IMG/VR virus record: IMGVR_UViG_3300008952_000006
Coordinates: 109,035 to 173,034 of that record
Strand: one strand, 5' to 3'
Source of the DNA: a virus
Length of the DNA stretch: 64,000 nucleotides
Shown: one piece after another, positions 43,617 to 62,590 of the stretch
Layout: the number at the start of each line of letters is the position of its first letter
How positions within the stretch are numbered: position 1 is the stretch's first letter
Translations under genes and position numbers: made by a program
The notes under the pieces: model-generated
What the model saw: the letters and a program-made list of their open reading frames with translations, nothing else
The model's database searches: none
Told to the model about the DNA's origin: nothing

Positions 43617-44324
43617 TTACCTTTTCGGGAGAGACTGTAGCGGGGCTAAAGTGTTAAAAGCGGGTAGTGGCTTCTTTTTAGGGGCTGCCGTAGTCGCAGA
43701 AGCGCCAAAGAGCCCACCTTTTGGGAACGCCGAGGATGGGTTAAGGGCGGCTTGCCCACTCCCATAGGTCATGTACCCTCGGAAAGCCTGTCGGGGAATC
43801 CCAGTAATATGACGGGGATCAGCGAGCCTTGTGGAGGACAGGCCTGCTTTGGTAGCCTTGTTTAAACCCAAGATTGGGCTATTTCCAGCAGGCCCATAGC
43901 CGCCCCATGAACGGTTCCATGGAGTGAGGGCTCCCTTAGCTGTTGTGACAGCCTTTTTTCTGGCTAGCAAGGACGCTGCCGGGGCCACCTTTCTCGCTCG
44001 GAGGGCTTGGACGCCCAATTGTAATGCCTTCCCTATCCCGCCAGCAACCCGTACAGCGGGGATCATGCTCGCAACACCAAACGCTGTTGCCCATGGATTC
44101 TTTTTAACGTACCGAACAGCGGGTTCGAGCTTTTGTAATAACGACGTGGTGGGTTTATTAGGCTTAATATCAGCAGGGTTTACCGCGCCGCCTTTAGGGC
44201 GGACACCGAGCCCACTCGCATCAAGGGCCACCTTCTCAAAACGAGACCCCGCACCGCGTACTTCATTAGTGTAAGCTGCGCTTGATATCTTCATAAATGG
44301 GCCGGGGCAATTCTTGGTGTACAT
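43617..44324 (-). CDS. Basic Ala/Gly-rich late protein carrying an FEKVA motif
   Basis: 235 residues, TAATG overlap with the preceding gene and AGGGGG 8 bases upstream. FEKVA lies at 29-33. KKNPW at 74-78 starts a weakly hydrophobic Ala/Gly segment (AFGVASMIPAVRVAGGIGKALQLGV), and PWNRSWGG lies at 135-142. The same two landmarks at similar spacing occur in the adjacent gene 44324-45715, so the two appear to be paralogues. Net charge is strongly positive. It is probably an internal head or ejected protein; no enzymatic domain is seen. Confidence 0.6.
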   Translation of the reverse strand: MYTKNCPGPFMKISSAAYTNEVRGAGSRFEKVALDASGLGVRPKGGAVNPADIKPNKPTTSLLQKLEPAVRYVKKNPWATAFGVASMIPAVRVAGGIGKALQLGVQALRARKVAPAASLLARKKAVTTAKGALTPWNRSWGGYGPAGNSPILGLNKATKAGLSSTRLADPRHITGIPRQAFRGYMTYGSGQAALNPSSAFPKGGLFGASATTAAPKKKPLPAFNTLAPLQSLPKR

Positions 44325-45715
44325 TAGTTAACCCCCTTCTTTAGCTGACCGAACTCGTCGTAACCTTGTGGTGGGTAAAATGGGGCGGTCTGACTTGGGT
44401 AGTATCGGTCAGCGTACCGCTGTAGGGCGGCCTGCTCCGCCTGAGGATTCCTCGCAACAGGTTGTGGCGTCGGTTTTTTCTTCGCGACAGCCTTAGTCGC
44501 TGGCTTGCCCTTGTACTTGTTGTATGCCTTGCTTATGGCGCTTTGCGCCATGCCTGCGGGGGTGTAGGGGTGGACGTAGTTAGCATAAGCCCCAGGAATG
44601 GCCGCAACTGTATTAGCCGTGTTCTGTGCGGGCGTCATCTTATTCAGCGTGCCTCTCGCCGCGTTGTATGCAAAGTCCCCTACCTGAGTAGCCCCCAATC
44701 CCACGCCTACACCGCGCATCGCCCTTCGCGTATTGGTAAGCTTCGCCCAGGGACTAGCAACATTCTTCATAAACGGTACTGCGCCAGTCACCTGACCAGC
44801 GAGTGAGGCTGTCCCCTTAGCCGCCTTAAGCGATTTGGGCAGATTGCGTCCTACGCCTGCGGCCCACTTGGGTGTCTGCAGCATCATCCCTGACCAATGG
44901 CGGTTCCAAGGCATGCCGCCGCTCAAAGCCGATTTTGCTTGTCGGAAGTGTCTAGCGCTCCGCAGCTTTTGGGTAACATTAGATGCATTAAGAGCGCCGC
45001 GCCCCAGCCAAGCAGCCCTAGCGCCTTTAGCTGCAAGGGTAGCGCCTTTGGCTCCCCCAGAAACAGCAGCCCCAACAGGAGTGACCATCGCAGCAGTTGC
45101 GGCGTAATCTGCTGCAGTCCAGGGATTGCGTTTCGCCCAACCTGCGCCACGGGTAAGAGCGGAGTCTCTAAAGGGCGAGTAGGTGTCTCCCAGAGCCTTA
45201 GAAAGGAAAGTTTGGCCCGGAGCCATCCTTGCGTCTCTAAATGCCGATTGCGCTTTTGCTGGGTTAGTCTTTTGGAGCGCTCTCACCTGCTTTTGGACGG
45301 GGTGGGTGCCTGTGGCTGCCTGGGCGACAGTTTTTGCCATGCTGCCAGTGTGTGACGCGCCACGCTTGAAATCCCCAAAGACTCCCTTAACAGCCCCGCC
45401 GGTTCTGCCAGACTTCCAAGAACTTGGAGAAAGGACCGCGCCAGCACCTCGTTTAAGGTTCTGCCAGCCTCTTCCAACCAAATTAAAATCATCACCCTGT
45501 CTGGGCGTGTTCCATTGAGACGGGGCGGGTGGTTTTGGGGGGCCCTGTGTTGTCTGCCCCTTAGCGATACGCTTTATAACTTTGCCTTGCGGATCTGTTA
45601 TTACAGCACCAGCTTGCTTCTCCATGGGAGCAGATAGCCCGCGCACAAAAGCATCATAGACAGCCTTGCGTGCGGCTACCTTTATTAGTGCATTTTGTAG
45701 GGCGTCTTCTTTCAT
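44324..45715 (-). CDS. Basic Ala/Gly-rich late protein carrying a MEKQA motif
   Basis: 463 residues, ATGA overlap with the preceding gene. The N-terminal helix (1-30) leads into MEKQA at 31-35. A low-complexity basic region follows, then KRNPW at 195-199, a hydrophobic Ala/Gly segment (DYAATAAMVTPVGAAVSGGAKG) and PWNRHWSG at 269-276, matching the layout of the neighbour at 43617-44324. The C-terminal part is Pro/Lys-rich. The composition (Ala, Gly, Lys, Pro; almost no Cys) fits a packaged or ejected virion protein. Function unknown. Confidence 0.6.
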   Translation of the reverse strand: MKEDALQNALIKVAARKAVYDAFVRGLSAPMEKQAGAVITDPQGKVIKRIAKGQTTQGPPKPPAPSQWNTPRQGDDFNLVGRGWQNLKRGAGAVLSPSSWKSGRTGGAVKGVFGDFKRGASHTGSMAKTVAQAATGTHPVQKQVRALQKTNPAKAQSAFRDARMAPGQTFLSKALGDTYSPFRDSALTRGAGWAKRNPWTAADYAATAAMVTPVGAAVSGGAKGATLAAKGARAAWLGRGALNASNVTQKLRSARHFRQAKSALSGGMPWNRHWSGMMLQTPKWAAGVGRNLPKSLKAAKGTASLAGQVTGAVPFMKNVASPWAKLTNTRRAMRGVGVGLGATQVGDFAYNAARGTLNKMTPAQNTANTVAAIPGAYANYVHPYTPAGMAQSAISKAYNKYKGKPATKAVAKKKPTPQPVARNPQAEQAALQRYADRYYPSQTAPFYPPQGYDEFGQLKKGVN

Positions 45716-47376
45716 TTTAGATTACCTTGGTGTTTGGCCCGAAAGTTCCCCTGCCAATCAGTCCCGACAGCGGGATTATTCTTATCCCATGTAGCGCCTC
45801 GGGAGTTCTTTTGATAATCCCAGGCCTTATCGGAGAGACCGGGCGGTCTAGGCCCGATGAATTTTGTCCGATCAGCATTTCTCTTGGCATCTTTCGGTGT
45901 CTGTTCGCTTATGCCGGATAGGTAGCCCCCCGCCCTAAGCCCTGGATGGTAATCACGGTACCCTGATACTTGCATACCGAGAGTCGGGATAGCCTGTGGC
46001 CCTAGGTATGAGGCCCCCATCGCGGCTCCGTAACCACCCCTCGCAAGCCTTTTGGGGTCCCAAGGGGCTGGACCTTCCCCACCAATAAGCGGCGTGCCTT
46101 TTGGGAGTCCCTGGCCCCCAAGGTCCGTTGGGGTATAGCTGTGCCCGTAAAAACCAGCCCCAGCCCCAGCAGCGCCAAGAGCACCACCCTTCAGTGTCTG
46201 TGCCAGAGGACCCCCAGTTCGAGCCCAGTGAGTATCAGGCTTAAATCCTTCGGGGGCTTTTTTTCTAGCGCCTCTTCGGGTCCAAGCCCTGCCTTCTGGG
46301 GTGGTTGGTATTATTTTGGTATATTCCTTAGTCTCTGGGTGGGGCTTAGTTGATGTGTAAATGTTCTGGCCGCGTCCTGTCCCCCGGGATGTAAGTTTTT
46401 TGGGGTCAAGCCACGTCTTCCAATTCATTAAAGAAGATTGATCAGGTGCGCGGGTATAGTTTTTAGGTATACCGGACGCGTACTGATTTAGAGACTCTGC
46501 CAATTCCTCAGCCTTGGTTTTGGGTGCTGGCCCATGACCCTCTGGCCATTTTTTTGGTTCGGGGGGATTCGCAGGCGGGGTATCCGGGCGACCGCCATGC
46601 ACTGGCTTCGTTTTATTGGTTGGTTTAGATGGTGCGGGCTTAACCGTAGTAGTTGCGCCTGAAGGCTTCACCCCCGCTGCTGCGGTTTGTTGGGGAGTAG
46701 CTTGGGCTGTTGGTGGTCGTGGTGTGAATTTTGGGGCCGCCGAGGACACGCCCCCTTGGTTAATAGGGGTCATATTGGGTTGGGGCGTAGTGGTGGGTGG
46801 TTTTGCTAAAGTCTGCCCCGGGAAACCCGTAGTAGGACCGCCTGTGTATGGGGGTGCGGTTGGCGTGGTCGGTGGTTTTACACGTGGTGCTGCGTCCGTC
46901 AGCGTTTTCCAGGCTTGGCTGAGGCCCTGCCCTTTGGGAGCTTTTCTGTATGCATCAATAGCTGGGCCAGCCCGCTGGAAGAGTTTGGCGGCCCCAGAAA
47001 GCCCCTTGGTTTTGTTCGCTGTCTTCTCTAAGAAAGCTCCGTAATGAGCCATGGCTGTCTTTGGTAAACCAGACCCCATGCCGCCCACAGGGTTCTGCTT
47101 CTTTGCGGCTGTGTTTATATTTTGGGCCATGGGCTTGGACGCGTTTGAGCTAACACCGCGCATTTTAAACAATCGAGTCATAGCATCAATATGGGGGGCA
47201 ATGTTGCCAGAGCCACCTAGCGTCATTGCACTGCCGCCTTGCGAAGGCGTAGGTTGAGAGTCTGCTCTTGGGCCTGACCCACCAACAGAGCTTGCGCCAA
47301 CAATGGCGGTCTTAATTTTAGCGGTATGACGCAAAATCCTAAGTGCTGCTTCCTTGTCGAATTCGATGTCAACCAT
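45712..47376 (-). CDS. Pro/Thr-rich basic late protein with FDKEA and LEKTA motifs
   Basis: 554 residues, TAATG coupling to the upstream gene. FDKEA is at 6-10 and LEKTA at 116-120. A long Pro/Thr/Lys linker occupies about 160-280 (repeated PPTTP and KPT-type units). The C-terminal half has Gly/Trp/Tyr-rich segments (GGALGAAGAGAGFYG and DYHPGLRAGGYLSG), the first a short glycine-zipper-like hydrophobic stretch. No domain is recognised. The linker suggests an extended, flexible protein, as in structural or injected phage proteins. Confidence 0.6.
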   Translation of the reverse strand: MVDIEFDKEAALRILRHTAKIKTAIVGASSVGGSGPRADSQPTPSQGGSAMTLGGSGNIAPHIDAMTRLFKMRGVSSNASKPMAQNINTAAKKQNPVGGMGSGLPKTAMAHYGAFLEKTANKTKGLSGAAKLFQRAGPAIDAYRKAPKGQGLSQAWKTLTDAAPRVKPPTTPTAPPYTGGPTTGFPGQTLAKPPTTTPQPNMTPINQGGVSSAAPKFTPRPPTAQATPQQTAAAGVKPSGATTTVKPAPSKPTNKTKPVHGGRPDTPPANPPEPKKWPEGHGPAPKTKAEELAESLNQYASGIPKNYTRAPDQSSLMNWKTWLDPKKLTSRGTGRGQNIYTSTKPHPETKEYTKIIPTTPEGRAWTRRGARKKAPEGFKPDTHWARTGGPLAQTLKGGALGAAGAGAGFYGHSYTPTDLGGQGLPKGTPLIGGEGPAPWDPKRLARGGYGAAMGASYLGPQAIPTLGMQVSGYRDYHPGLRAGGYLSGISEQTPKDAKRNADRTKFIGPRPPGLSDKAWDYQKNSRGATWDKNNPAVGTDWQGNFRAKHQGNLK

Positions 47377-49316
47377 TACAAAGTCCTCTTGGGAGCCGAA
47401 ATGATGTTCGGGACAAGAACATCAAACGGGTCGTCAGCCCCAGACATTAGCGTCATTAGATTAATAGGACCAGCATTATCCGGTACTTCGATGCGGCGCT
47501 TTAGTGAAAGAGGGGCAATAGACACGTCTACTTGTATGCCCTGAACCAAGGAGAACTCTACATATCCGTTAGAGTCAGTTGTATATGTTCTTTGGGTGTC
47601 GAAGACAGCCGTTCCTGAAAAGAGCTGGGGTCGATGGATCAGGCCAACGTGCACAGTTGCATTCTTAACGGGGGTACCATTCATATGGTACAGGGTGGCG
47701 TACAGGGTGCATAAGCTTGCAGGGGATGGCGGAGAAGTAACTGTCGGGTTGAACACCTCTGAAATTAACTGTATCGCTTGCACGTCTGTGCCTTCCGGCT
47801 CTGAGTACAGATAAGGGTCCGAGGCCTCTAATTTCGAGTTAAACACTGTGTATGAAAAATTATTAGTTGTGAAAGAGCTACCGGCCTTGGTTAGAGTAAA
47901 AATATATTCCCCGGGAGGGATCTCTAAGCGAAGACTTCCAGCAATGTCGGTGACCCCTTGAGCAACCTGAGTGCCATCTAACTCGCTCACAGTCACTGTT
48001 GTAATTGTATGCGGTGTCCCGTTAAGACCAGAGGTTCTGCCAGCGGTAATCTGTACCACTTCCTTGGCTTCAGCGGGAGTAATTAGATAGTGGGTTAGAT
48101 GCGTTTGCACACCAGCGTCATGCCAGACAACGTAAGCTTCTTGCGCGGTGGTGAAGGTGTGGTTTTGTATTACATAGCCGTCTACGCCGATAGCGTAGGG
48201 AGCCTGTGTTGAAACCCCATCAGAGCCTTGAGCAACTATATTACCGCCCTGTGACCCGAGCGCAGTAATACCGAGTGCGGACAGGACGCTCGCAGTGCCG
48301 CTTTGCACGTCAATCTGGCTTGTGGCCCCCGCGCTGCCCGCTGTAGCAGTTAGAGTGAAATAATTAGTGTCGTCCTCTAGCGTCACTAATAATCTATCCC
48401 CCTGGGCACCACCGGCAGTCATGATCAGTGTTTCAAAGAGAAGCTTCAGCTCAAAAAAGGTTACCGCAGCGCTATTGCCAACATTGCTCAGAGCAGGGTT
48501 AGAATTAAAGGTTCCCTCCGCAAGACCGGTATTTGCAGCAAACGTACCCCCGAAGTCAGATAGTGTAATCTGTGAGTCAGAGCCCTGACTATCAGTAGTA
48601 ATCTTCAGGTTTCCACCGTCATCAGAAACATAAACAGCCCCCATCTGGGCGTTCAGTGCGGCTATATACGATGCTTGGCCGGGGCCAGCGCCGTTCAGGT
48701 CAATTGTTCCTGGGGGGTGACCGTCAATTTGATAAGTTGCCGTATCTGTCCCTACACCGAAACCGTACAAGGCAGCACCGCCACTGGTTTCTGCTGGTGC
48801 GCATAAGAACTGGACTGTTTGGGCTCCCGTAGGGGCTGTGTCCGGTAATACCTGAATGGTGACTTGGTCTAGGTTATTAACAGAAATAGTGCTTACTGCT
48901 TGGTCCCCAATATAAGATGCGTACGTAAGAGGAAAGACCGAGGAGCCGGAACTATTATAAAGATGTGCGGTAACGGTCTGACCGATACCACCAACAATGC
49001 TGCTCTCTAGGACGATGTCTACTTCAGCGCCTATCGGAAAATCAGAGATGGGAGTGCCCGCCTCCAAGGTGTCCGAGTAGATAACCACAGGGACATTGCC
49101 GTACTTAAAGCGTAACTGATACTGGCCGGGATCTTCTGGGATAAAGGCAGCGCTTAGGTACAGGTTCGGAGCAGTTGTTACTTGGGTCATAGTGAGTACG
49201 GCTAGTTCAACCCCACCACTCGCGTCTAAAATTTGCAGCACAAAAGGCTCGGCTCCGACTTCTGCGGCGGAATCGAAGAATGGTATTGTTCTGCTTATGC
49301 CTAGCTGTGCTTTCAT
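47376..49316 (-). CDS. Large beta-rich virion protein
   Basis: 646 residues, ATG. Several Ig/transthyretin-like modules are visible: the N-terminal part (LGISRTIPFFDSAAEVG, AAFIPEDPGQYQLRFKYG), a flagellin/hook-like insert pattern at about 215-290 (DDGGNLKITTDSQGSDSQITLSDFG), and two C-terminal regulatory-like modules (VTDIAGSLRLEIPPGEYIFTLTKAG; TTDSNGYVEFSLVQGIQVDVSIAP). No transmembrane segment is seen. It is likely an extended tail, fibre or capsid-decoration protein. Confidence 0.62.
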   Translation of the reverse strand: MKAQLGISRTIPFFDSAAEVGAEPFVLQILDASGGVELAVLTMTQVTTAPNLYLSAAFIPEDPGQYQLRFKYGNVPVVIYSDTLEAGTPISDFPIGAEVDIVLESSIVGGIGQTVTAHLYNSSGSSVFPLTYASYIGDQAVSTISVNNLDQVTIQVLPDTAPTGAQTVQFLCAPAETSGGAALYGFGVGTDTATYQIDGHPPGTIDLNGAGPGQASYIAALNAQMGAVYVSDDGGNLKITTDSQGSDSQITLSDFGGTFAANTGLAEGTFNSNPALSNVGNSAAVTFFELKLLFETLIMTAGGAQGDRLLVTLEDDTNYFTLTATAGSAGATSQIDVQSGTASVLSALGITALGSQGGNIVAQGSDGVSTQAPYAIGVDGYVIQNHTFTTAQEAYVVWHDAGVQTHLTHYLITPAEAKEVVQITAGRTSGLNGTPHTITTVTVSELDGTQVAQGVTDIAGSLRLEIPPGEYIFTLTKAGSSFTTNNFSYTVFNSKLEASDPYLYSEPEGTDVQAIQLISEVFNPTVTSPPSPASLCTLYATLYHMNGTPVKNATVHVGLIHRPQLFSGTAVFDTQRTYTTDSNGYVEFSLVQGIQVDVSIAPLSLKRRIEVPDNAGPINLMTLMSGADDPFDVLVPNIISAPKRTL

Positions 49317-49327
49317 TTACAAAGTGC

Positions 49328-49555
49328 CTAATTATTAGAAGGTCTAAAAACGCCAATGACTTCTTCTACACTGGCAATCGTAAGAACTGTATTATATCTT
49401 TTTTCTTTGACGGAAGGGTCCCCTAAACTCTTTTCAAGAACAGACTTTAAGAAAGTTCTTTCTGTGATAAGGCGAAGCTTCTCGGCAGTTACGTACTCTT
49501 TTACTTGCTCCCTGAGCTTTTCGAGGGTTTCTTTTTTCTCTGATTCGCTGGCCAA
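49328..49555 (-). CDS. Small coiled-coil protein, unknown
   Basis: 75 residues starting at TTG with AGGGGG 6 bases upstream; no in-frame ATG or GTG follows. It is almost fully charged helix (KKETLEKLREQVKEYVTAEKL), with a short hydrophobic end (VLTIASVEEVIGVF). This is the size and character of small tail or head accessory proteins. No family recognised. Confidence 0.5.
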   Translation of the reverse strand: MASESEKKETLEKLREQVKEYVTAEKLRLITERTFLKSVLEKSLGDPSVKEKRYNTVLTIASVEEVIGVFRPSNN

Positions 49556-49872: not shown

Positions 49873-51225
49873 CTAAGAAGTAAGTGCGTACATGCCTAAT
49901 CCACCAGCGCCAAGAGCCGCGTAAGGGGCGATCTCCTTGAGGCCTTTTGCTTTCTGCCAGCCCTTGCCAAGGTTCATCGCCGCTTGAGCGCCCGCCCCTG
50001 CGATGCCACCGAGAGCCCCAGATTGGAGCGCAGAGTTAGCAAGACTTGGGCCATACGCCTTCCCGTAGTCTTTCATCGTTTGCCAGCTTTCAAAGGGATT
50101 CTCCGGCAAGGGGGTGCTGCGAGCGCCCTTAGGCAGGGGCGTGTTAACGCCGCCCGGGGGCATATGAACACCCAGCCGGTCTAATTGTTTCGCATCAGCC
50201 ATAGCATTGAATTGCGCAGAGGTTGGGGTCTTGCCAGCTGCCTTGGCTGCCTTGCCCTCAGCGGCAGCTACACGAATAGCTTGTGCTTCTGCTGCTGGCA
50301 GCTTTTGAAGCGCCCGAATACGAGAAGCATCTTTACCGGCACCCAGGAGCGCGCCGCCAACAGCGGTCCCGAAACCAGTTTGCGCCACGTTCTGGGTTAC
50401 TGGGGGACCTACGAAAGAGCTTTTAAGATTTTTTAGCCACCCCGGGAACCCCGCTGTTTTCACTAGGCGGTTACCGTATGTGTCTGTGTAGATGGCCATA
50501 GATGCTTGTTGAATCCCGCTAACCATAACGGAGCCTTCTTTTTTCTTACCCTTCTTCTTGAGAATGGCTGCTTGGATCTTATCTGGCAGCTTAGATTGCT
50601 TGCCTTTGAGCAAAGGGCTCTCGTCCATAGCGGGAGAGAAGGTCGCCTTGGCGGAGCTTTCTTTTTTCTTGTCTACGCCTTTGGTTAGCGCCTTGTAGCC
50701 CGCGATTCCTCCGCCGACGCTACCAGCTGTCCCCCCAATGAGCCCGGGGATCAGCAGTCTGAGCTTTACGGCGGCGTCATCGCCGGAACGAGCGCCGCTT
50801 ATTATCCGGCTGTATGCCTTAGGATTTGTCTTGCTTAGGAGAGCAAGGGATGCGAGGCCAGCGCCCATGCCTACTGCGCCCCCGCCCCAGCCCCCAAGTA
50901 TTGAGCCGCCAGCGCCACCGATGCCGCCCTTTACAGCGCCTTCGGTACCTCTACCGGACTTCTCCCCTTTTTCGAGGCCCTTGTAGGCACCTAAACCCGC
51001 GCCTGCAAGCATTGCGAGTGCTGCTTGCTTGGTCTTTTGCTTCTTTTTCTTAAGGATAGCAGCCTGAATCTGGTCTGGGAGCTTGGACTGCTTGCCCTTA
51101 AGTGCGGGACTTTCGTCCATAGCGGGGGAGAAAGTAACCTTAGCGGCTTCCTTTTCAAGTTCGACTAATGAGACTGCTTTTTTCATGCTCTTTAGTGACG
51201 TGTTGAATCTTAAAATGTCGTCCAT
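49873..51225 (-). CDS. Glycine-zipper late protein with an internal 34-residue duplication
   Basis: 450 residues, GGAG 7 bases before the ATG. LEKEA occurs at 23-27. A 34-residue unit around TFSPAMDESP and KGKQSKLPD is present twice, at 28-61 and 192-225, differing at only three positions. Between them lies a glycine-zipper hydrophobic region (about 75-185: GGIGGAGGSILGGWGGGAVGM, GLIGGTAGSVGGGIAGY). A third Gly/Ala-rich region is at the end (GGIAGAGAQAAMNLG, ALGAGGLGMYALTS). The repeated tag around a membrane-active segment suggests a packaged protein that inserts in the host envelope. Function is inferred. Confidence 0.6.
   Translation of the reverse strand: MDDILRFNTSLKSMKKAVSLVELEKEAAKVTFSPAMDESPALKGKQSKLPDQIQAAILKKKKQKTKQAALAMLAGAGLGAYKGLEKGEKSGRGTEGAVKGGIGGAGGSILGGWGGGAVGMGAGLASLALLSKTNPKAYSRIISGARSGDDAAVKLRLLIPGLIGGTAGSVGGGIAGYKALTKGVDKKKESSAKATFSPAMDESPLLKGKQSKLPDKIQAAILKKKGKKKEGSVMVSGIQQASMAIYTDTYGNRLVKTAGFPGWLKNLKSSFVGPPVTQNVAQTGFGTAVGGALLGAGKDASRIRALQKLPAAEAQAIRVAAAEGKAAKAAGKTPTSAQFNAMADAKQLDRLGVHMPPGGVNTPLPKGARSTPLPENPFESWQTMKDYGKAYGPSLANSALQSGALGGIAGAGAQAAMNLGKGWQKAKGLKEIAPYAALGAGGLGMYALTS
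50551..50652 (-). repeat. Internal repeat copy 2 (codons 192-225)
   Basis: Encodes the second copy of the MDESP/KGKQSKLP unit in the 450-residue late gene. Protein identity to copy 1 (51043-51144) is 31 of 34, while synonymous positions differ at many sites, so the duplication is not recent or is held by selection at the protein level. Confidence 0.85.
51043..51144 (-). repeat. Internal repeat copy 1 (codons 28-61)
   Basis: First copy of the 34-residue unit of the 450-residue late gene, immediately after its LEKEA motif. The second copy at 50551-50652 follows a KKES stretch instead, so the LEKEA tag itself is not duplicated with it. Confidence 0.85.
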
Positions 51226-51229: not shown

Positions 51230-52111
51230 TTACTCCGTGAGGTATCGCTGAAGCTTCTTTTTGATAGTATTCTTCAGACGGCTAACTTGATAATCGGGGA
51301 TTTTCATTGCGCGAGCAATATCACCGGTTGAAGAAGTTTGGGTCTTCCCATAGCCAGTTAAATATTCATAAACGGTACGCTCGTTACCGGTTAATTCATA
51401 TTTAAAAAGGCGAAGAACTTCTTCGGATTTTGAGGGAACTAAAGCATATGGGTCTTCTTCAAAACCCTGGGAAAGTAAATCATTACGAAGCTCGGACTCC
51501 ATGCGCCCCGCTTCTGCGAGCGACCACCCGAGATCTTCAGCCACTTCGGTAGTGGTGGGTACGCGCCCCAGGGTCTCTACAAGCTCATCTCTAGCAGATG
51601 TGTACTTTTTAATTTTGTAGACACGATTCTCAGGGATGCGGCCAATATTCTGGTTTTCTACAATAAATCTTTTTGCTTTATCTAGGTAACGGTAGACGTA
51701 TGTGCCTAAAGAACCCTTGCTCGGGTCGTAGGACCTTAATGCGTCCACAAAGCGAAGTTGAAACTCGGACTCAATTGCTGAGTCTGGGATCATCTTTACC
51801 TTGCCTTTGTATACGTTTACTTTGGAGCGAATCATGGGGCGAAAGCTACGGAGAAGTGGGGCTAAGTCCCGGGGGTTTTGGCCTCCGTCCATCCATGCCT
51901 GCCACAGCTTGATCTCGCGAGCCTTCTTGGCGTCTAGATTATCAAGAGCGTTAAAGGTCTCCAGCCCACCGTTATCAGTAGTATCGTCAGTTTTCCTCTC
52001 ATGTTGCTTCACAGCTACCAGTTTCCCATCAACATGGCGCGTGTGTGCATCTACCTGAGTGCTACCGGCATATTTTAGGAAATCGGAAATGGGGTTTGCC
52101 ACGGCTAACAT
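51230..52111 (-). CDS. Sigma-70 family RNA polymerase sigma factor
   Basis: 293 residues from ATG 52111, with AAGGA 5 bases upstream; a longer frame to 52153 would overlap the preceding gene without a ribosome site. Region 2 is about 85-155 (IESEFQLRFVDALRSYDPSKGSLGTYVYRYL, the core-binding and -10 region). Region 3 is about 158-215 (IPENRVYKIKKY and LGRVPTTTEVAEDLGWS). Region 4 is about 232-290 (LTGNERTVYEYLTGYG, STGDIARAMKIPDYQVSRLKNTIKKKLQRYL), a helix-turn-helix for the -35. The first ~60 residues add an HTRHVDGKLVAVKQHER segment seen in phage head proteins. The gene lies inside the virion operon, so it may switch late transcription or be packaged. Confidence 0.85.
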   Translation of the reverse strand: MLAVANPISDFLKYAGSTQVDAHTRHVDGKLVAVKQHERKTDDTTDNGGLETFNALDNLDAKKAREIKLWQAWMDGGQNPRDLAPLLRSFRPMIRSKVNVYKGKVKMIPDSAIESEFQLRFVDALRSYDPSKGSLGTYVYRYLDKAKRFIVENQNIGRIPENRVYKIKKYTSARDELVETLGRVPTTTEVAEDLGWSLAEAGRMESELRNDLLSQGFEEDPYALVPSKSEEVLRLFKYELTGNERTVYEYLTGYGKTQTSSTGDIARAMKIPDYQVSRLKNTIKKKLQRYLTE

Positions 52112-52122
52112 ATATCCTTCTA

Positions 52123-52806
52123 CTAGGGTTTGGGGTTGGCCAACATCCCCCAAGCCTTTTGGGCTCGAGAATTAGCGGATGCATCAATAACGGTGCCAGC
52201 CTTGCGCACAGGTGCGGGTTTGGGCTTGCCAGTAAATTTATCTATCGACGGTATTTTTTTAGCTCCAAAGAACTTTGAAAAAGGACTAGGGCCTACCCGC
52301 GACATCGGGGGTGGTGATGGTTCCATGTAGGCCTTGTCTATTGTCGCTTCATTTTTAATCTGCTGCTTTGTTTTTCCCAGGGCTGTCGGCTTAGCGGGAA
52401 CTAGCGCAGTGCTTTTGGGGGTTTTCATCAAGTGCCGAGCCTCACGAGCCTCACGAGCATCGGTTTTTTGCATTCTTCGGAGCTTCCTTGCCGTATCGCC
52501 TGGAAAGCCGGGTCTCGCTTGCGGGAGGCCAAACTCAGCAACCATAGCCGCAGAGGGAGAAATCTTGGTCTTGACAGGGGGCCTGTTAGCTATGCCCATC
52601 CAGGCCTGCTGAACATCAGGGGATAGTTTGGGAGTAGTCCCGGGAATCGTTGAGCTACGTGGTTTGGGTGCTGCTCTGTAGGCCGCTTTCATGGCGTCCC
52701 ACCCCTTTGGGATAGCTTTCAAAACACGTATGGGAGTGTCTAAACGACCAGCCTCTTTCTCCAAGAGGAGTTCTTCAATGCGTTGTTTACGTTCGGGGGA
52801 GAGCAT
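52123..52806 (-). CDS. Basic late protein with LEKEA motif
   Basis: 227 residues, AAGGA 5 bases before the ATG. The N-terminal amphipathic helix holds LEKEA at 15-19 and is followed by a basic Pro/Lys/Ala-rich chain without hydrophobic core segments (SFR-poor; KKIPSIDKFTGKPKPAPVRKAG near the end). No domain is recognised. It directly precedes the sigma factor gene in the - strand operon and belongs to the set of tagged small proteins. Confidence 0.55.
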   Translation of the reverse strand: MLSPERKQRIEELLLEKEAGRLDTPIRVLKAIPKGWDAMKAAYRAAPKPRSSTIPGTTPKLSPDVQQAWMGIANRPPVKTKISPSAAMVAEFGLPQARPGFPGDTARKLRRMQKTDAREAREARHLMKTPKSTALVPAKPTALGKTKQQIKNEATIDKAYMEPSPPPMSRVGPSPFSKFFGAKKIPSIDKFTGKPKPAPVRKAGTVIDASANSRAQKAWGMLANPKP

Positions 52807-52814: not shown

Positions 52815-53030
52815 TTAAGGCTGTTTTGGGGCTGGGATACCAGCCTTTGCGAGGGAAGTAATTTTAGTTGCGGGCTTGCCAATATTACCGGCGAAGTTTT
52901 TTACCTTTTTATAGCCCTTAGCGAGCGCCTTGGCTGCCTGGCCAACGCTGGGTAGCTTAGGCATTCCTATGCCAAAACCAGCTTCTTTGATCTTGCCCTC
53001 TAAAACTTCTTTTCTCTGCTTATTAAGCAT
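52815..53030 (-). CDS. Small basic late protein
   Basis: 71 residues, ATG with GGGG 7 bases upstream. The N-terminal helix contains a degenerate tag (KIKEAGF at about 13-19), and the rest is Lys/Ala/Gly-rich (KALAKGYKKVKNFAGNIGKPATK). It has an isoelectric point well above neutral by eye. Probably a DNA- or membrane-associated virion protein; no family is known. Confidence 0.5.
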   Translation of the reverse strand: MLNKQRKEVLEGKIKEAGFGIGMPKLPSVGQAAKALAKGYKKVKNFAGNIGKPATKITSLAKAGIPAPKQP

Positions 53031-53048: not shown

Positions 53049-53423
53049 TTAAGAAGCGAGAAGAGCGCCAAGGCCTCCAGCGCCAAGAGCGCCACCGCCT
53101 GCAACCAAAGCTTTTTGTTTTGTGGGCAACTTCTTCCAGCTCTTGTAGGCCTTACCGAGCATTTTATTACCTTTTGTCCCAATAAGGGATTTTTTAGCAG
53201 CCCGTGCTTTCAAGAGTTTGCGCAGCAAAAGTGCCGTGCCTCCAGCGCCAACAAGAGCGGCTGCGCCGCCCATAAGCTTGCCCTTGTGCTCCTTCATAAG
53301 CTCAGGCCCTTTTTTCATCGGGTTCCTTTTAAGTTGCTCAAGGGCAACCCGGGCTCTCATCATTCGACTAAGTGCTAATTTTTCTTTTCCCTGCTGTGCG
53401 CGCAGCAAATTTTCAAGGTTGCT
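53049..53423 (-). CDS. Small basic late protein with two glycine-zipper segments
   Basis: 124 residues from ATG 53423, which has GGAGGAG 8 bases upstream; an open frame to 53477 lacks a ribosome site. The tag variant is KEKLA at 14-18. Two Gly/Ala hydrophobic segments lie at about 51-68 (LMGGAAALVGAGGTALLL) and at the end (ALVAGGGALGAGGLGALLAS), separated by a basic stretch. The same ending occurs in the partial gene at 63901-64000. The pattern fits membrane insertion by glycine zippers. Confidence 0.55.
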   Translation of the reverse strand, partial: SNLENLLRAQQGKEKLALSRMMRARVALEQLKRNPMKKGPELMKEHKGKLMGGAAALVGAGGTALLLRKLLKARAAKKSLIGTKGNKMLGKAYKSWKKLPTKQKALVAGGGALGAGGLGALLAS

Positions 53424-53498
53424 CATTATAATAACTCCTCCGAAGTAATTAAGGCTGGGTGCCTTATTATGCAACAATCTGTCATGACAACATAGGCT
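53424..53498 (-). promoter_or_regulatory. Largest gap of the late operon; weak promoter candidate
   Basis: 75 bases between the 69-residue gene and the 124-residue gene. On the - strand TTGTCA (revcomp of 53485-53490) and TAATAA (revcomp of 53464-53469) are 15 bases apart, a short spacer, so a sigma-70-type promoter is only possible. An inverted repeat TAAGGC/GCCTTA (53450-53455 and 53461-53466, 5-base loop) overlaps it; no T-run follows on either strand. Confidence 0.25.
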
Positions 53499-56700: not shown

Positions 56701-57295
56701 ACGAAGGTTTGTTCTGCAGCAAGTAAAGGAGGTCTTTTGAGTCGTCTACCTTGCTTGTTCCCCGGTAGAGCTGGGTCGCGCCAGAAAAAATAGCAGTTTT
56801 ATAAGCATTGAACACACTCGAAGACTTCTTTCCCCAATAAAGACGGCAGTTAGCCCAGTAACTAGTGTGGTCACGGCACCCGAGGAGAATCTCGCGGCGG
56901 CTACCAACCTTTTTGAAGCTGTACCCCATCACTTCCCCAACAAAGAGGAGCTTCCAGTTTCGCCAGTCGTTCTTATCCGTTAATAGGACACTCTCACCGG
57001 CCTCTTGTGCCGCAGCCTGTTGGTCTGGCGTTGGTCTTTTTTGGGAGCCGTAGGCCCGTTCATCGCGGTCGTTGAGTCCATGCTGGGTGCCAAGCTCGTA
57101 ACGGGAGTCAAAGTAGAACACATGTACAAGAGTTCGAGGCAGGATCTTGTGGACCTCATCTACAGCTGGGATAGTTAGCGTAGCCGTACCAGAGACGTTC
57201 ACTCCGCAAGAGACCTTTACGGAGGTGACATCTACCTCAACCCCCTCTAAAAAGAGACGGACGCCTAGGTATCTTCCCTGTACGCGACTATCCAT
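53705..57295 (-). CDS. Probable baseplate hub protein (gp27/gpD-like)
   Basis: 1196 residues. The first ~70 residues (GVRLFLEGVEVDVTSVKVSCGVNVSGTATLTIPA then LPRTLVHVFYFDS) and residues ~115-145 (WKLLFVGEVMGYSFKK, REILLGCRDHTSYWA) form the double-barrel start typical of tail hub proteins of the gp27/late control D class. A later NYMFVSARYSTRTMEVTCKYSPQIVVGMPALVLDP segment is also hub-like. Between and after are large helical and beta inserts, making it about three times the usual length. It should sit at the centre of the baseplate, at the end of the tube. Confidence 0.6.
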   Translation of the reverse strand: MDSRVQGRYLGVRLFLEGVEVDVTSVKVSCGVNVSGTATLTIPAVDEVHKILPRTLVHVFYFDSRYELGTQHGLNDRDERAYGSQKRPTPDQQAAAQEAGESVLLTDKNDWRNWKLLFVGEVMGYSFKKVGSRREILLGCRDHTSYWANCRLYWGKKSSSVFNAYKTAIFSGATQLYRGTSKVDDSKDLLYLLQNKPSSMPNVPGLLGGIFSLLESATGCFSPDADKKFLGCNDFMSQAEVRLKLTRQVGASSEDDTSATFTASKSFKKYLLRVSKQATYTATFIQFLNMLMGKIYHVWNSQSAPPYFSDGDTVYSDVAVATGGGKFKKGDYLYNLENALQKTYELANKQTSDTKKRRGEVSIAFERDFMLYEKNGAIDVATHKAFDDLNIKDGIMSSGIGSNTEWFKHGFSEKGPLFIEGNKRYDALMKKSVDTNNVYWEKRADKVQQIYQKAEEARNLAAGMYEAYRKIKFISKTALYNADAALENATILRHNRETYYEIRKLLEEALGMLNSLTGKTYKTKRTAVELRDRLLTTFFHPDLFMVPPPKCNVLFPDHIQSISFSRNWMSEITRLWLHGRTESGRNKKDCYFSPNSAILGGPSNTSADQAVKKGASFLMNHEKWTGIIPSIVGLGDADIFKTLHTKGLAEARKVAQQEIDAGKRTQPFDDVEFSGEAKFSPQPHLQRAANYMFVSARYSTRTMEVTCKYSPQIVVGMPALVLDPLKAKSSILAWTGDEDSPPVADPDGNNVYSITANEPQPLESTDGGSGLAGLMPPKGTHYIGMVAGITHVIDVAGGAQTLISLVKCREHNETAGLFGEPDDDGLINAKRSQTKTSWKPLGKFTTLVVSKTASGRLVADTDNADAPERILGDRYNPKLKYRVRAVDGDGYDGWSFASGANLIDDLPTKDSPLPDQSLQYPEVWVTVDYRSSSTKSHDVKFTWEASVLPPWFSNIYNPKNIGPKYYQKMYGCNSIVDDPPIKFVSGVSADDYPQNEDFQLGTTVAVPFSVQGGTEYKEIRIPLDLTTASASAAGAADQLADVWLALKEIGANTDKFIDGYVDRKFATLLDVMGNQNPYLKIKTDFSSEGLKGPWQYGGDRVDDAGKPVFTRGFHGDAYGDYTNFIGVDGKPLIAETLTRLTDEPSVPARPIDSKLDPRSLRYQRVVSYVNALRSQGFRNIGGTYDDSHIADLEETG

Positions 57296-57297
57296 GA

Positions 57298-57699
57298 CTA
57301 CTGCCCCGGGGCCATTTGGGCGGCGTCATAACTCGGCATCTTGCCCCTAACTTTTGTGGGGACCCTTTCCCTTATCGCAGGAGCTGCTGGGAGCGTTGGG
57401 AGGCTTGCAGAAGTGCTGCGGGCTCGAGGTGTTTCGTGAGTCAGTAAGAATTGGATGACCTTGTTCTGCAAGGCGATAGATTGCTCGAGGGTGCCAATCC
57501 TGGCGGCTAACTCATCTACATCTTCTGTAATATTCCACATAGCGCCTTGAACAGCGTCGTAGCCCTTTCTATTGGCCTTCTCGCTCTCCACAATAGCGCC
57601 TTCATTGGGTGTGTACCGGTTTATCACCGCAGTACCAAAACCAGCAAAGGCCGTTATTAGTGCTAATATTATTGCTGTAGTGTTTTTATCAAATTTCAT
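57298..57699 (-). CDS. Membrane-anchored coiled-coil protein
   Basis: 133 residues, ATG. Residues ~8-26 (TAIILALITAFAGFGTAVI) form an N-terminal transmembrane anchor, followed by a helical stretch (DELAARIGTLEQSIALQNKVIQFLL) and a Pro/Arg-rich tail. This layout matches inner-membrane spanins or membrane-bound phage proteins, but no outer partner gene is embedded or adjacent. The function is undecided. Confidence 0.55.
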   Translation of the reverse strand: MKFDKNTTAIILALITAFAGFGTAVINRYTPNEGAIVESEKANRKGYDAVQGAMWNITEDVDELAARIGTLEQSIALQNKVIQFLLTHETPRARSTSASLPTLPAAPAIRERVPTKVRGKMPSYDAAQMAPGQ

Positions 57700-57704
57700 G
57701 CAGG

Positions 57705-59222
57705 TTACTCGTCAAGGCTAAAGGTTTCCGATTGCTGTAAGGCGGAATCAACCGGGCCAAGATGTACCATAGTAGCAGTAGTAGGACTAGCGGATCGGAA
57801 TACCGAGCTATTTTTACCATAGCCAACACCGCTTTCGTTTAACGCCCCGATCCCTAAACCATAAATAACACGGTCTAAGCTGCCAACCTTGAGGGCGTCG
57901 AGCATATTAAACTTTTTAGAAGGGTCACCAATCCAGTTAGCGCTAGTTTCACCGGGAACGGCTGTGCCGCCGCGATATCTTGCGGCTTTGGCCGAGCTGC
58001 CCTTGTCCATCCTGCCCACAATCTGACCAATATAACCAAACCACTGGTTAATCTCCCCGTGCTGGAACCCTGCTAAATCCTCTGCTGCGGTGACTGCATG
58101 GTTAGTCCAGTACTTTGTGGTTTGCCATGCGAGAGAGGTTGTATAGCTATTTAAGAAAGTCATGGCTGCTGCGTCAGACTGCAGTAGGGCGTAAGCCCCC
58201 TGCTTGGCCGCTGCGGCTGCCCCTGCTGCGGTCTTCCCCACAAAAGAGGAGAAAGCGGGGTTTGCCGCACCGCCAGCTTGTTTGGCAGCAGCGTTACCGA
58301 CGATGCCCAGACCGTACGCGCCAAGGTACTCGATAACACGATTACGCCGGTCTACAGTCTCCCTTGTCGCAACTAGGTCTAAGTCAAAACCACCCCGAAT
58401 CGTGGCGATCTTAGCGCTCTTGTTTAGCAAGAAATTGCTCTGTGCCGCAGTATTAATGTAGTTAGTTACATAAAAAGTAAATTGGAAGGTCATGGCGTTG
58501 GGGCTGTCCGATAGCTCCGCTGCTGCTGCGTTAATAGGATAACCTTCAACAATAATGTCGTCCCACCCAATGTACACACGCGCATTACGCTCAATAAGTT
58601 TAGTAGCACGAAAAAACTTATCCCAGTTCTCCCAAAACACAGCGCGCCAATTATAGTCCGCAGTGTTCATCAAGATGCCACGGAACTCCAAGGCTCTGGG
58701 CCTCTCCCCAAAAGCATATATGTAGGTATCACCAAAAGTCTCGACCACTTGCGTCTTCTCTATGCGCTGCTCACGGACAGACTGTAAAATCCAATCCGTC
58801 CAAGCGGTGGATGCGGGCGCGCCTGATGCATTGTCTGTAGCATCGTCACTAGCCGATGGTTGGAGGAGCCCCGAGGGGTCCGCGCCGCTCAAAAGGCCAT
58901 TTGAGTCTCTTAGGGCCGGGTCGGTAAACGGGCTCGTTCCGATGTCTGTCCCAAGCTTGTTGAAAACCATAACTGGTGTTCCATCTTCTCTGAGAACCTG
59001 TACAAAGGCGTGTGTGTTTGGCTTGGCGGTGATGCCCCGTGTTGGTCGGGAAACCTCTGCGATGTCATCGAAGTTCGCGCGTTGTGATTGAGCAAGCTGC
59101 TTGTCCGCGTACTCTTGCTTTGAACGACCTTGAGCCCTGTAGTCGGGAATGTAACTGGCGACCTCTTCCCCTTTACCGATAAAGGCGTCTGGTTCCACAA
59201 GGCAAAGTGCTTTTGATGACAT
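57705..59222 (-). CDS. Tail/baseplate protein
   Basis: 505 residues, GGAGGAG 4 bases before the ATG. Residues ~155-265 (VVETFGDTYIYAFGERPRALEFRGILM, ATKLIERNARVYIGWDDIIVEGYPI, MTFQFTFYVTNYI) are strongly beta and resemble tail-tube or tube-initiator folds that sit above the hub. The second half is Ala/Gly-rich and helical. It precedes the membrane protein and hub-like gene in transcription order, which fits a tail-end role. The family is not identified. Confidence 0.6.
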   Translation of the reverse strand: MSSKALCLVEPDAFIGKGEEVASYIPDYRAQGRSKQEYADKQLAQSQRANFDDIAEVSRPTRGITAKPNTHAFVQVLREDGTPVMVFNKLGTDIGTSPFTDPALRDSNGLLSGADPSGLLQPSASDDATDNASGAPASTAWTDWILQSVREQRIEKTQVVETFGDTYIYAFGERPRALEFRGILMNTADYNWRAVFWENWDKFFRATKLIERNARVYIGWDDIIVEGYPINAAAAELSDSPNAMTFQFTFYVTNYINTAAQSNFLLNKSAKIATIRGGFDLDLVATRETVDRRNRVIEYLGAYGLGIVGNAAAKQAGGAANPAFSSFVGKTAAGAAAAAKQGAYALLQSDAAAMTFLNSYTTSLAWQTTKYWTNHAVTAAEDLAGFQHGEINQWFGYIGQIVGRMDKGSSAKAARYRGGTAVPGETSANWIGDPSKKFNMLDALKVGSLDRVIYGLGIGALNESGVGYGKNSSVFRSASPTTATMVHLGPVDSALQQSETFSLDE

Positions 59223-59223
59223 G

Positions 59224-59445
59224 CTACTCCTCCGATTGGCCCGCCATCGCTCGTGCGGCGGACAACCCTAGTGATGGCCCGTCAGGGCCGAAGATATCAC
59301 TAGTAATAATACGCCGTGAGGGGACAATATCGGAGTCTTCCTCTATAAAAGATTCCGGGTTGACCACTTCGCCCTTAGCGAGTCCTACCCCGCCCTGAAT
59401 TAATTCCATCTCATCACGCATAGCTGCAAGTATTTCGGCATTCAT
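59224..59445 (-). CDS. Small acidic protein, unknown
   Basis: 73 residues, ATG with AGGAT 8 bases upstream; its stop ends one base before the next start. It has an acidic helix (AEILAAMRDEMELIQ), then FIEEDSDIVPSRRIITSDIFGPDGPS. No family recognised. The tight spacing supports expression with the tail gene. Confidence 0.5.
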   Translation of the reverse strand: MNAEILAAMRDEMELIQGGVGLAKGEVVNPESFIEEDSDIVPSRRIITSDIFGPDGPSLGLSAARAMAGQSEE

Positions 59446-59461
59446 AGTAATTTATCCTATG

Positions 59462-61375
59462 TTATTTAAGAGCCCCCGGGCCCATTAAGATTGGTCCGCC
59501 TTTTACGGGTAGAAATGCCCCGACCAGCGCCATTCGATCCGTGATCGCCGTGATGGCCGTCACTCGGTTTTTCTCTATAATCTCCACCATAAGAAGGAAC
59601 TGCAGCAGTGGGTCGTAATTACCGCTCTCTAGCTCTATTTTTAGCTGCGCAACACTGAGACCGAGCACCATATTGATGGCATCCGTAATTGGTGGGGGAA
59701 GGTGTGGGCGCGGATCCTCTGGCACTTTCTTCCCCCCTCCTTCCTCAGGGTCTACAAAAACAAAATCTTCTGGCAAGGCGAGCCTAAGTGCGCCAATAAT
59801 AGTATTATTGTCTTCTCGAAGCTCCGTAGTGTCATCGAAGTCGTCAGCAACAAATGCCCACGTAACAGTTACTGCGGGGCCTCCAGCCAAACCACCAGCA
59901 AAGTGAGCCCAATTGCTTGTGTCTATAGCAACCACGTGGCTCTCACCAGCTTTAAGGGACGGTATAACGACGGCGTCGTACGGGGCTTCCTCAAAAGCTA
60001 CGGTGCTTTCCTCTGGAATAAGTAGGAGGGGGGCCACTAGCTCCATGTTTATCCAGACAGCATGCCAGTCAAAGCCGTCAAAGCCTTCGGAGTCTACTGT
60101 CCCAACATTTGTGATCGTAACCTTGACAACAGGGGCTTCGTAACCCTCGAGGTCCACATACTCAAAATCACAGGTTAAATCAGGACCGAAAATCGGCTTC
60201 TTGTCCCGTTCCAGGTGACTCAAGAGGAAAGCAGGGAGAATGGGCTCCGCGACTGTTTTAGGAGCCGCTTTCGCAGCAAGAACGCCTTCGAACATCTCCT
60301 GTAAGCCCTCTTTGGTAGTGGAATCGGTCACGGCAATTCCGAGCCTCTTCATTACATTACGCATCTTTAAAGAGAACGTGTCAGCACTGACTGGTTTATC
60401 CACGGGCGTGTAGGTTGGTAATACAGGTTGTGTGCGCGTGGGCACGCTTTTCTTGTCTCTTTTTAGCCCTGTCCCGTGAATGTGAGCAGACCGGCCCTTT
60501 AGTAAGAGGAGGAAGTCTGCATACTCATCATTACTTAGCCCATAAAAGGCAGCCCGATCACTGTCGGTGGGGGGACTGTCGCCCTTAGGAAAAGGTATCT
60601 TCCCGAAAGGTACACCAGGATAGTTATCAGAAAGGTGCTTCTGGACCTTTTGAATGTTTAGTGGTGACGGTAACCTTTTCTGGGTGAGCCACTGATAGTC
60701 ATTAGTAGTAATCTCGCCGTTCGCAACTGCAGATAAAGCTAGGATGCCTAATTCCACTTTAGAAAACGCTAATTCTGTTCGGTAACTATGGTGGCTCCGC
60801 GCACCATCCTCGGTTAAAGCGGCTACCAATGTTGCGCGCTCCGCGCTGTACCCAGCAGATAAAGAAGTGATTACATCCTTTGAGCCAGACAAGCTTAGTA
60901 GCGCTTTTGCGTCCCCGTAGGTGATGTGGAGCTTAGCGTTAAGGCCTGCCCCGATAGCGGCCACAAGTGGGTCTTTAGCCTCTAGCCCGAGTCCCTCTAA
61001 GGCAGCCGGGAATACTCCAGGCCCTAATGGAGTCGAGTCCGGGATAACCGGCCCGCTAGGAGGGGGATCTTTTGGTTTGCCCCCCACGCTCAACGTAAAG
61101 CTACCGCCAGCCGCTGCGCCCCCGGCCTCCGCCAAAACTTCACCGGTATCGTCACGAACCATAACGAAAGACGATTCATTAATAAAATCCCCCTCGCCAA
61201 AGGTCCAGGCGTAAGTGCCTGTGGCCAACTCAAAAGAATCCGACCCCGTACCACCCGCCTCCAGAGTGTGGGCAGCGACCTCTACCCCACCAGAATCAAA
61301 GACACGGACATACTGGCCTTGCCAGCCATCGTCGAAGGCGTCCGTTTCGTTGATGGTAACGGTTATTTTTGGCAT
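59462..61375 (-). CDS. Virion protein with CARDB-like domain
   Basis: 637 residues. An N-terminal beta module (MPKITVTINETDAFDDGWQ at the start, DGGVEV-like strands to about 95) leads to a helical central part (about 120-370). A CARDB-like domain lies at about 400-530: PVVKVTITNVGTVDSEGFDGF, a loop with PSLKAGESHVVAIDT, TVTWAFVADDFDDTTELREDNNT. CARDB modules occur in secreted and surface adhesion proteins. A helical end follows. No enzyme motif is seen; it is probably a virion surface protein. Confidence 0.6.
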   Translation of the reverse strand: MPKITVTINETDAFDDGWQGQYVRVFDSGGVEVAAHTLEAGGTGSDSFELATGTYAWTFGEGDFINESSFVMVRDDTGEVLAEAGGAAAGGSFTLSVGGKPKDPPPSGPVIPDSTPLGPGVFPAALEGLGLEAKDPLVAAIGAGLNAKLHITYGDAKALLSLSGSKDVITSLSAGYSAERATLVAALTEDGARSHHSYRTELAFSKVELGILALSAVANGEITTNDYQWLTQKRLPSPLNIQKVQKHLSDNYPGVPFGKIPFPKGDSPPTDSDRAAFYGLSNDEYADFLLLLKGRSAHIHGTGLKRDKKSVPTRTQPVLPTYTPVDKPVSADTFSLKMRNVMKRLGIAVTDSTTKEGLQEMFEGVLAAKAAPKTVAEPILPAFLLSHLERDKKPIFGPDLTCDFEYVDLEGYEAPVVKVTITNVGTVDSEGFDGFDWHAVWINMELVAPLLLIPEESTVAFEEAPYDAVVIPSLKAGESHVVAIDTSNWAHFAGGLAGGPAVTVTWAFVADDFDDTTELREDNNTIIGALRLALPEDFVFVDPEEGGGKKVPEDPRPHLPPPITDAINMVLGLSVAQLKIELESGNYDPLLQFLLMVEIIEKNRVTAITAITDRMALVGAFLPVKGGPILMGPGALK

Positions 61376-61385
61376 GCCTGATCCC

Positions 61386-61571
61386 CTATACGCTTAAACG
61401 CTCTTCTTGAACTTGCTTACGCAATTCTTTACATTGTGCGGCTACTGTCTGTAGTGTCTTTCGTACCCTACCACCAGCGGCGTTGTTGCCATTACCATGT
61501 TTTTTTGCGTCAACCAGTCCTTCGGTCAATAACGCGATCATATCATCAATTTGCTGTTCTGCTGTTTTCAT
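61386..61571 (-). CDS. Hc1-like (histone H1-like) DNA-binding protein
   Basis: 61 residues, ATG with AGGA 7 bases upstream. The pattern GNNAAGGRVRKTLQTV followed by CKELRKQVQE (about 27-56) matches the Gly-Asn-x-Ala-Ala-Gly-x-Arg-x-Arg-Lys helix of the Hc1 family known from Chlamydia and other bacteria, where it compacts DNA. The acidic N-terminal helix (about 1-20) and the length also match minimal members; the Lys-rich tail of chlamydial Hc1 is absent. It lies among virion genes, so it may condense phage DNA in the head or host DNA after entry. Confidence 0.65.
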   Translation of the reverse strand: MKTAEQQIDDMIALLTEGLVDAKKHGNGNNAAGGRVRKTLQTVAAQCKELRKQVQEERLSV

Positions 61572-61573
61572 CT

Positions 61574-62590
61574 TTATTTCCTACCTTTCTTTTTCTTTGG
61601 TTCTTTAAAGTATTTAGACCCCCCAGGTATCAAACTTCGGTGATTCAACGATTGAGCCGTGGGTATAAATGTCGGGGGCGCTTTGCGGCCTGGATAGGCC
61701 GCTTCAAAAGAGCTGGTTTTCGGTACAGCATAATATGTGCCTAGCCGGGACCTATGAAAGTTATAGTTATCAGCTTGGCCCCCTAGCGCCTCTATCTTAG
61801 AGCCCAGGTGACCTAGATTGCTGCCACGGAAAACCCCGGGGGGTACACCGGGCTTGGGTGCGCCTGCGCCAACTTGATGTAGCTTTTCGTACGCCTTGTT
61901 CATCGCTACACCGCGAGCCGTGGTTTTTTCTGTGGGCTGCGGTCGAGTAGAGCTTACAACTCGGAAAGGCTGCTTCGTGGCAGGCTGCCCTATAGGTTGC
62001 TGGGGTGTCGCAATTGCTGCCTGCGACACAGGCTGGGTTGGTGTACTAATAGTCTGTGTTTGGGGCTGTGTTTGGGGCTGTGTTTGAGGAGCGGGCTTCG
62101 GGGCGGGCGTGACCGGTGTTTCGAGCTTAAGCGGGGGTGGTACATTCATCTTGCCCGTTGCTGAGACCTTTGGTGCTTTAAAATCCGCTGGTTTTGTTGT
62201 GGGGGGCGTGACAGGGGTAGCGGGTTTTGGGGCCGGGGTCGGCGTAGGCTTCGGGGTAACCGTTGGTGTGGCGGTTGTTGCCGTGGTGGTTGGTGGCTTA
62301 GCGGTAGTCGTTACAGCGGGCGGCTGGGCGTTTACTGGTGTAGTCCCCGTTGCGGGTTTCTTTGCGGGCTGCTTCTTTGGTTGTGGTTTAGGTAGATTGG
62401 CTGCCGCAGGGGATAGTGATGCGGGCTTAAGGTAAGGAGCCTTTCTATTAGGGTCGAGCAGTGGTAATCCTGCGGCGGTCTTCTCCAAGACACTATTAGT
62501 GATAATACTTTGAACATACTTGTCCGCTATCCTAGCCAGGGCGATCTTCTCGAACTCATCCTTAAAGGCGGCGAACATAACTTTATTCAT
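61574..62590 (-). CDS. Pro/Thr-rich late protein with FEKIA and LEKTA motifs
   Basis: 338 residues, AAGGAGG 8 bases before the ATG. FEKIA at 13-17 and LEKTA at 35-39 lie in the helical N-terminus. Residues ~60-200 form a long PT/PK/QTQP linker; three near-copies of a TGTGTTTGGGGC unit (fwd, about 62055-62090) encode the QTQP part. The C-terminal ~120 residues are basic (NYNFHRSRLGTYYAVPKT, GSKYFKEPKKKKGRK). Probably a flexible virion protein that ends in a nucleic-acid-binding tail. Confidence 0.6.
   Translation of the reverse strand: MNKVMFAAFKDEFEKIALARIADKYVQSIITNSVLEKTAAGLPLLDPNRKAPYLKPASLSPAAANLPKPQPKKQPAKKPATGTTPVNAQPPAVTTTAKPPTTTATTATPTVTPKPTPTPAPKPATPVTPPTTKPADFKAPKVSATGKMNVPPPLKLETPVTPAPKPAPQTQPQTQPQTQTISTPTQPVSQAAIATPQQPIGQPATKQPFRVVSSTRPQPTEKTTARGVAMNKAYEKLHQVGAGAPKPGVPPGVFRGSNLGHLGSKIEALGGQADNYNFHRSRLGTYYAVPKTSSFEAAYPGRKAPPTFIPTAQSLNHRSLIPGGSKYFKEPKKKKGRK

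Follow-up and report, generated by a model that had tools for sequence, protein, structure and literature searches.

A K-x-A motif in late proteins of an uncultured phage is a probable recognition site of its prohead protease

In phage T4, short motifs in head proteins are the processing sites of the protease gp21, and propeptides target the internal proteins (PMC9026906). The proteases of phiKZ and SPN3US trim several packaged head proteins at a short motif, and some of the propeptides contain multiple motifs (PMC10052503). For phage G, Table 1 of PMC5646251 gives the capsid protein gp27 as a gene product of 282 residues with a mature form of 255 residues, based on N-terminal sequencing.

The window analysed here is a stretch of 64,000 bases (109035-173034) of a virus record of 173,034 bases. 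The remainder of the record was also analysed, and genes were called throughout as the longest non-overlapping open reading frames. Coordinates are those of the window unless given as those of the record. The late genes are encoded on the minus strand. Those of the head cluster fall outside the window: genes for the sheath (record 65815-70281), the major capsid protein (record 75013-76233), candidate scaffold proteins (record 76858-78948), the protease (record 78986-80674), the terminase (record 83978-85615) and an RNA polymerase of 2091 residues (record 94754-101029). The run of small basic genes with which the window ends on the right seems to be resumed at the record's left-hand end, and in a relative, G001, the counterparts of the right-end and left-end genes sit side by side.

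The RNA polymerase gene (L014:4755-11030, minus strand) encodes one chain in which Rpb2 (beta) domains precede Rpb1 (beta') domains; its product is a fused multisubunit-type RNA polymerase. Matches to it were present in all nine relatives searched, in open frames of about 2060-2500 residues. In one of these, G009:C1:96374-103792, the match is split within a frame of 2498 residues, with some 350 added codons, located between positions 979 and 996 of the query, that are possibly an intein.

The original prediction described a recurring hydrophobic-E-K-x-A tag in otherwise dissimilar late proteins between 43617 and 62590, and every motif it quoted was found in its gene. All sites lie on the minus strand; where a slash is given, it marks the position after the motif alanine. 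The quoted motifs are FEKVA at residues 29-33 of the basic protein 43617-44324 (44226-44240), MEKQA/GA at residues 31-35 of 44324-45715 (45611-45625), FDKEA/AL at residues 6-10 and LEKTA at residues 116-120 of 45712-47376 (47347-47361 and 47017-47031), LEKEA/AK at residues 23-27 of 49873-51225, a protein with glycine-rich segments (51145-51159), LEKEA/GR at residues 15-19 of 52123-52806 (52750-52764), and the pair FEKIA at residues 13-17 and LEKTA/AG at residues 35-39 of 61574-62590 (62474-62554). The protein 44324-45715 has a second motif, LIKVA, at 45674-45688, and a sigma-factor-like protein, 51230-52153, read from a TTG start, has FLKYA/GS at residues 25-29 within NPISDFLKYA (52067-52081). 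Looser forms occur in a 71-residue basic protein (KIKEA/G at residues 13-17; 52815-53030) and near the N-terminus of a 142-residue basic protein with glycine/alanine-rich hydrophobic segments (KEKLA/L; 53049-53477).

The strongest form of the motif, absent from the original prediction, is MNALEKYAAKxxL; several neighbouring proteins open with it, from residue 1 on, both in the window (62603-63894) and at the record's left-hand end. Within the window, protein 62603-63352 carries the N-terminal tag MNVLERHIAKKKLAGKLKVA/A (63293-63352), a divergent copy of the MNALEKYAAK tag, and protein 63352-63894 carries MNALEKYTTKRRLTEALLSKLA/Q (63829-63894).

We conclude that the motif is very probably a recognition and cleavage site of the head-maturation (prohead) protease, which near the N-terminus of small basic proteins would end a removable propeptide resembling the capsid-targeting sequence (CTS) of T4. 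The computed support for this reading consists of the enrichment, directionality and distribution of the motif, its conservation in divergent relatives, the identity of the protease by fold and the register of the phage G cut.

A prohead protease gene had been expected beyond the right end of the window; the gene exists, but it lies to the left of the window, at the position given above, where it adjoins the scaffold and capsid genes. Its product matches the PHROG head maturation protease family (1e-11) and has a prohead-protease fold, with structural matches in BFVD to phage G gp19 and to many named prohead proteases. A fold search of the full protease model against the PDB gave no significant match, and a profile search against PDB sequences found nothing meaningful. 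Residues H104, S160 and D212 are invariant and are candidate catalytic residues. K-x-A occurs directly before the catalytic domain, at residues 29-31, in 29 of 30 relatives, and directly after it, at residues 229-231, in 23 of 30. Set against the reversed motif, K-x-A is confined in its excess to the two flanks (34 vs 0 in the N flank, 23 vs 23 in the catalytic core, 159 vs 62 in the C flank). In the structure model, confidence is good for most of the catalytic domain and low for the flanks, which are probably unstructured. Database phage rows were left out of the alignments behind the two structure models.

The capsid protein, which matches the HK97-capsid fold (E about 1e-8), carries the motif near residue 25; in alignment A5, A27 is invariant and K25 is at least 90% conserved. 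Alignment with phage G gp27 is gap-free over the motif stretch (hhalign, 98.3%) and places the motif alanine, Ala27, on Ala27 of gp27. Since the tabulated lengths of gp27 differ by 27 residues, its implied cut falls after Ala27 (GRVALA/QAM). The alignment implies that the site in our capsid protein shares the register of the phage G mature N-terminus, propeptide removal itself being known, from that table, for phage G only. As gp27 has alanine at P3, lysine at this position is not universal. The capsid proteins of mycobacteriophage cluster C keep K-L-A near the N-terminus.

A scan with the protease found 199 relatives, from which 80 loci were kept; comparative counts were made on 21 non-redundant loci with proteases less than 60% identical. 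In the genes between the protease and capsid genes of these loci, K-x-A outnumbers A-x-K by 383 to 129 (p=3e-30). Among the same scaffold genes, R-x-A shows no asymmetry (60 vs 58 reversed), nor does K-x-S show any of the K-x-A type. A single site motif is common to scaffold, capsid protein and protease. In this phage it abounds in the proteins whose genes adjoin the capsid gene, and in the distant, cultured Salmonella phage Arash and Vibrio phage D69 the capsid-adjacent proteins are likewise motif-rich. Both of these phages have core proteins rich in hydrophobic-[ED]-K-x-A and a K-x-A at the N-terminus of the capsid protein (LVKEA/GAAM and LTKEA/GAAM). At its core, the motif consists of K-x-A and, directly after it, a small or acidic residue. 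The site logo of the relatives reads L/M/I, E/Q/V, K, T/L/V, A, S/E/A, A, and R, L, I and K are depleted at the position after the alanine. From these data we infer the consensus [L/M/I/V/F]-[E/Q/V/T]-K-[T/L/V/I/x]-A/[S/E/A/G/N]-A and place the cut after the alanine.

In relatives, genes near the protease gene other than those for scaffold, protease and capsid protein also carry the motif at their N-termini: K-x-A-[SEAGNQ] occurs 104 times in the first 45 residues, the reversed form 18 times. Over the full length of these other genes K-x-A was counted 514 times vs 368, and in the tail genes past the capsid gene of the 21 loci it is not enriched (128 vs 103). Some tail-side and large proteins do carry K-x-A, so the motif alone is insufficient. 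Few or no N-terminal h-[ED]-K-x-A tags (h, hydrophobic) were found in the divergent relatives G003 and G006, for which the longest-frame gene calls are poorer. A 734-residue protein of the head cluster (record 90857-93061; L006:10857-13061, minus strand), conserved in G001, has 17 K-x-A vs 7 A-x-K; it is perhaps a multiply cleaved core protein, and its many sites, in a protein with no assigned function, were counted against the cleavage-site reading.

The hydrophobic-x-Glu specificity suggested by the T4 parallel gave way to K-x-A. The T4 motif [LI]xE is enriched neither in tags nor in scaffold (37 vs 39), and for N-terminal tags the counts are 22 vs 20 for AxE and 38 vs 42 for [SA]xE. With no enrichment in tags, [LI]xE and AxE/SxE were ruled out as tag motifs. 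AxE has a milder excess in scaffold genes (301 vs 187).

The same distribution could be read as that of a docking motif, the K-x-A helices binding scaffold or capsid during assembly and staying uncleaved. Scaffold, capsid N-terminus and cargo all bear the motif and would all meet inside the prohead, and targeting and cleavage may use one segment, as in T4. We nevertheless consider uncleaved docking improbable, because the protease sites lie in flexible flanks just outside the catalytic domain, the residue after the alanine is restricted, and the motif alanine is aligned with the experimentally implied cut of phage G.

Among the cargo candidates, a common N-terminal segment is present on otherwise dissimilar basic proteins. 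Nineteen tagged proteins, a set chosen by N-terminal sequence with loose matches included, have pI values of 10.0-12.0 (median 10.6), compared with a median of 5.6 for the other late proteins. Pfam and PHROG scans of the tagged proteins gave no match except for the sigma factor. That protein is also the exception in G001, where the bodies of the window's other tagged proteins have no detectable homolog; most head and tail genes do have G001 homologs, at roughly 30-75% identity, and G001 has tagged proteins of its own at the corresponding places. The sigma-factor tag NPISDFLKYA/G is kept there as NPISDFLKFA, and this conserved K-x-A tag suggests that the sigma factor may be packaged. A SNF2-type helicase (record 85997-87772) also begins with K-x-A sites. 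When the MNALEKYAAK tag was searched for as an exact pattern, seven contigs matched; a protease locus was also obtained from six of them, and the remaining one contains a close relative of the capsid protein. Given that the tag matches a motif that is probably cut in capsid and scaffold, its bearers are probably packed into the head and trimmed there before injection.

Several tagged proteins have further features of their own. One of 188 residues (record 7476-8042; L002, minus strand), beginning MEPDIKKIGLELEKIAWRGTYYHGAPSAVEEKI, has a motif that by eye is reminiscent of ADP-ribosyltransferases, of which T4 Alt is a packaged example; with no Pfam or PHROG match, this likeness is only a lead. 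The proteins 49873-51225 and 53049-53477 of the window and L138:1635-2681 have long, glycine-zipper-like, glycine/alanine-rich hydrophobic segments, which might suit membrane-inserting ejected proteins. In G001, L117:13189-14178 is a frame of 329 residues with repeated sequence in which the MNALEKYAAK tag stands mid-frame, at residue 231, reflecting either an internal start or a fusion.

The clustering and close similarity of the MNALEKYAAK copies might suggest that the tags arose in a small family by recent gene duplication or as relics of recombination and are no signal at all. On many proteins of G000 and G001, however, the copies of MNALEKYAAKxxL vary in their synonymous codons with the residues fixed, a pattern indicative of selection at the protein level. 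The tagged proteins are moreover dissimilar in their bodies, and h-E-K-x-A is found at residues 6-39 in other contexts as well as in scaffold and capsid proteins. We regard this origin as very unlikely.

The frequency of the motif in this genome bears out the original prediction that it recurs beyond chance. In the first 60 residues of the 18 late genes of the region there are 7 h-[ED]-K-x-A sites, vs a shuffle mean of 0.48 and a maximum of 4, none of 3000 shuffles reaching 7. In the whole record, late genes have 18 such N-terminal sites (shuffle mean 1.3, maximum 5 of 300) and other genes have 0, the N-terminal carriers being 14 of 73 late genes vs 0 of 133 other open reading frames (Fisher, p=2e-7). 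As a control for Ala/Lys-rich helices of equal composition and helix propensity, the backwards motif A-x-K-[ED]-h was counted in the same N-termini and occurs once, vs 18 forward sites (p=8e-5); the frequency expected of such helices, which had been named as the case that would speak against the tag, is therefore exceeded. In this genome taken by itself, N-termini hold no enrichment of plain K-x-A relative to A-x-K (55 vs 43), and counts over all late proteins show no overall excess either. The claim consequently rests on the extended motif, its position and the relatives, and the looser forms quoted alongside the tag are individually weak, with backing from the relatives. Least credible is the notion of chance motifs in Ala/Lys/Glu-rich amphipathic helices, to which the Ala/Lys-rich late cargo and the plain K-x-A count lend some colour and which the shuffles, the reversed motif and the cross-relative counts, together with the symmetry of R-x-A and K-x-S in scaffold genes, refute.

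The proposal that the tag is a targeting or processing signal for packaged proteins is likewise supported, by the motif in scaffold, protease flanks and capsid N-terminus and by the phage G register, and we can outline how prohead cleavage at K-x-A might operate. Tagged proteins would co-assemble with scaffold inside the prohead. The protease would release itself at the K-x-A sites flanking its catalytic domain, digest the scaffold at many such sites, trim the capsid protein after Ala27 and remove the tags from the cargo. The trimmed basic proteins, including the sigma factor and probably the SNF2-type helicase, would then remain with the DNA and pass into the host. More broadly, and with confidence somewhat short of even, we propose that a large uncultured clade with a single-chain beta-beta' RNA polymerase uses two elements, a head protease specific for K-x-A and a modular address tag at the N-terminus, to load fast-changing basic effectors, the sigma factor and the helicase into the head, from where they would be injected; the injected cargo could then be listed from sequence alone. 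If cleavage at K-x-A holds, the motif would make it possible to name, from sequence only, the packaged and probably injected virion proteins of a widespread group of uncultured phages. Most tagged proteins lack database relatives and would, on the same reading, be candidates for host takeover or counter-defence.

A limited, non-exhaustive literature search turned up no account of a head-protease site of the K-x-A type. As in the T4 CTS/gp21 system (PMC9026906), where the proteins concerned are internal ones, N-terminal propeptides are common to divergent basic proteins and the cleavage motif occurs in scaffold, capsid protein and protease flank. T4 cuts after L/I-x-E, whereas the site here is h-x-K-x-A and the tag sequence is unrelated; with [LI]xE not enriched, the tag would work like a CTS and is not the T4 CTS itself. 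The system also resembles the giant-phage proteases phiKZ gp175 and SPN3US gp245, which act in phages with ejected head proteins, several packaged head proteins being trimmed at a short motif. Those proteases cut after glutamate (AXE in SPN3US); here P1 would be alanine and P3 lysine. Phage G (gp19/gp27) and the Bxz1-like mycobacteriophages of cluster C have a homologous protease and capsid protein. In phage G, KTA and KVA flank gp19 and the mature N-terminus of gp27 aligns after the motif alanine, with the difference that gp27 lacks the P3 lysine. Herpesvirus assemblin, of related protease fold, cuts after alanine and before a small residue, and the preceding residues differ; we know of no cargo tag in that system. 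If correct, our reading adds a head-protease specificity with alanine at P1 and lysine at P3 to the glutamate-type specificities of T4, phiKZ and SPN3US, its register supported by the tabulated N-terminal sequencing of phage G. The logic of head processing is thus that known from T4 and the giant phages, and what would be new is the specificity, together with a modular tag, in an uncultured clade with a fused beta-beta' RNA polymerase.
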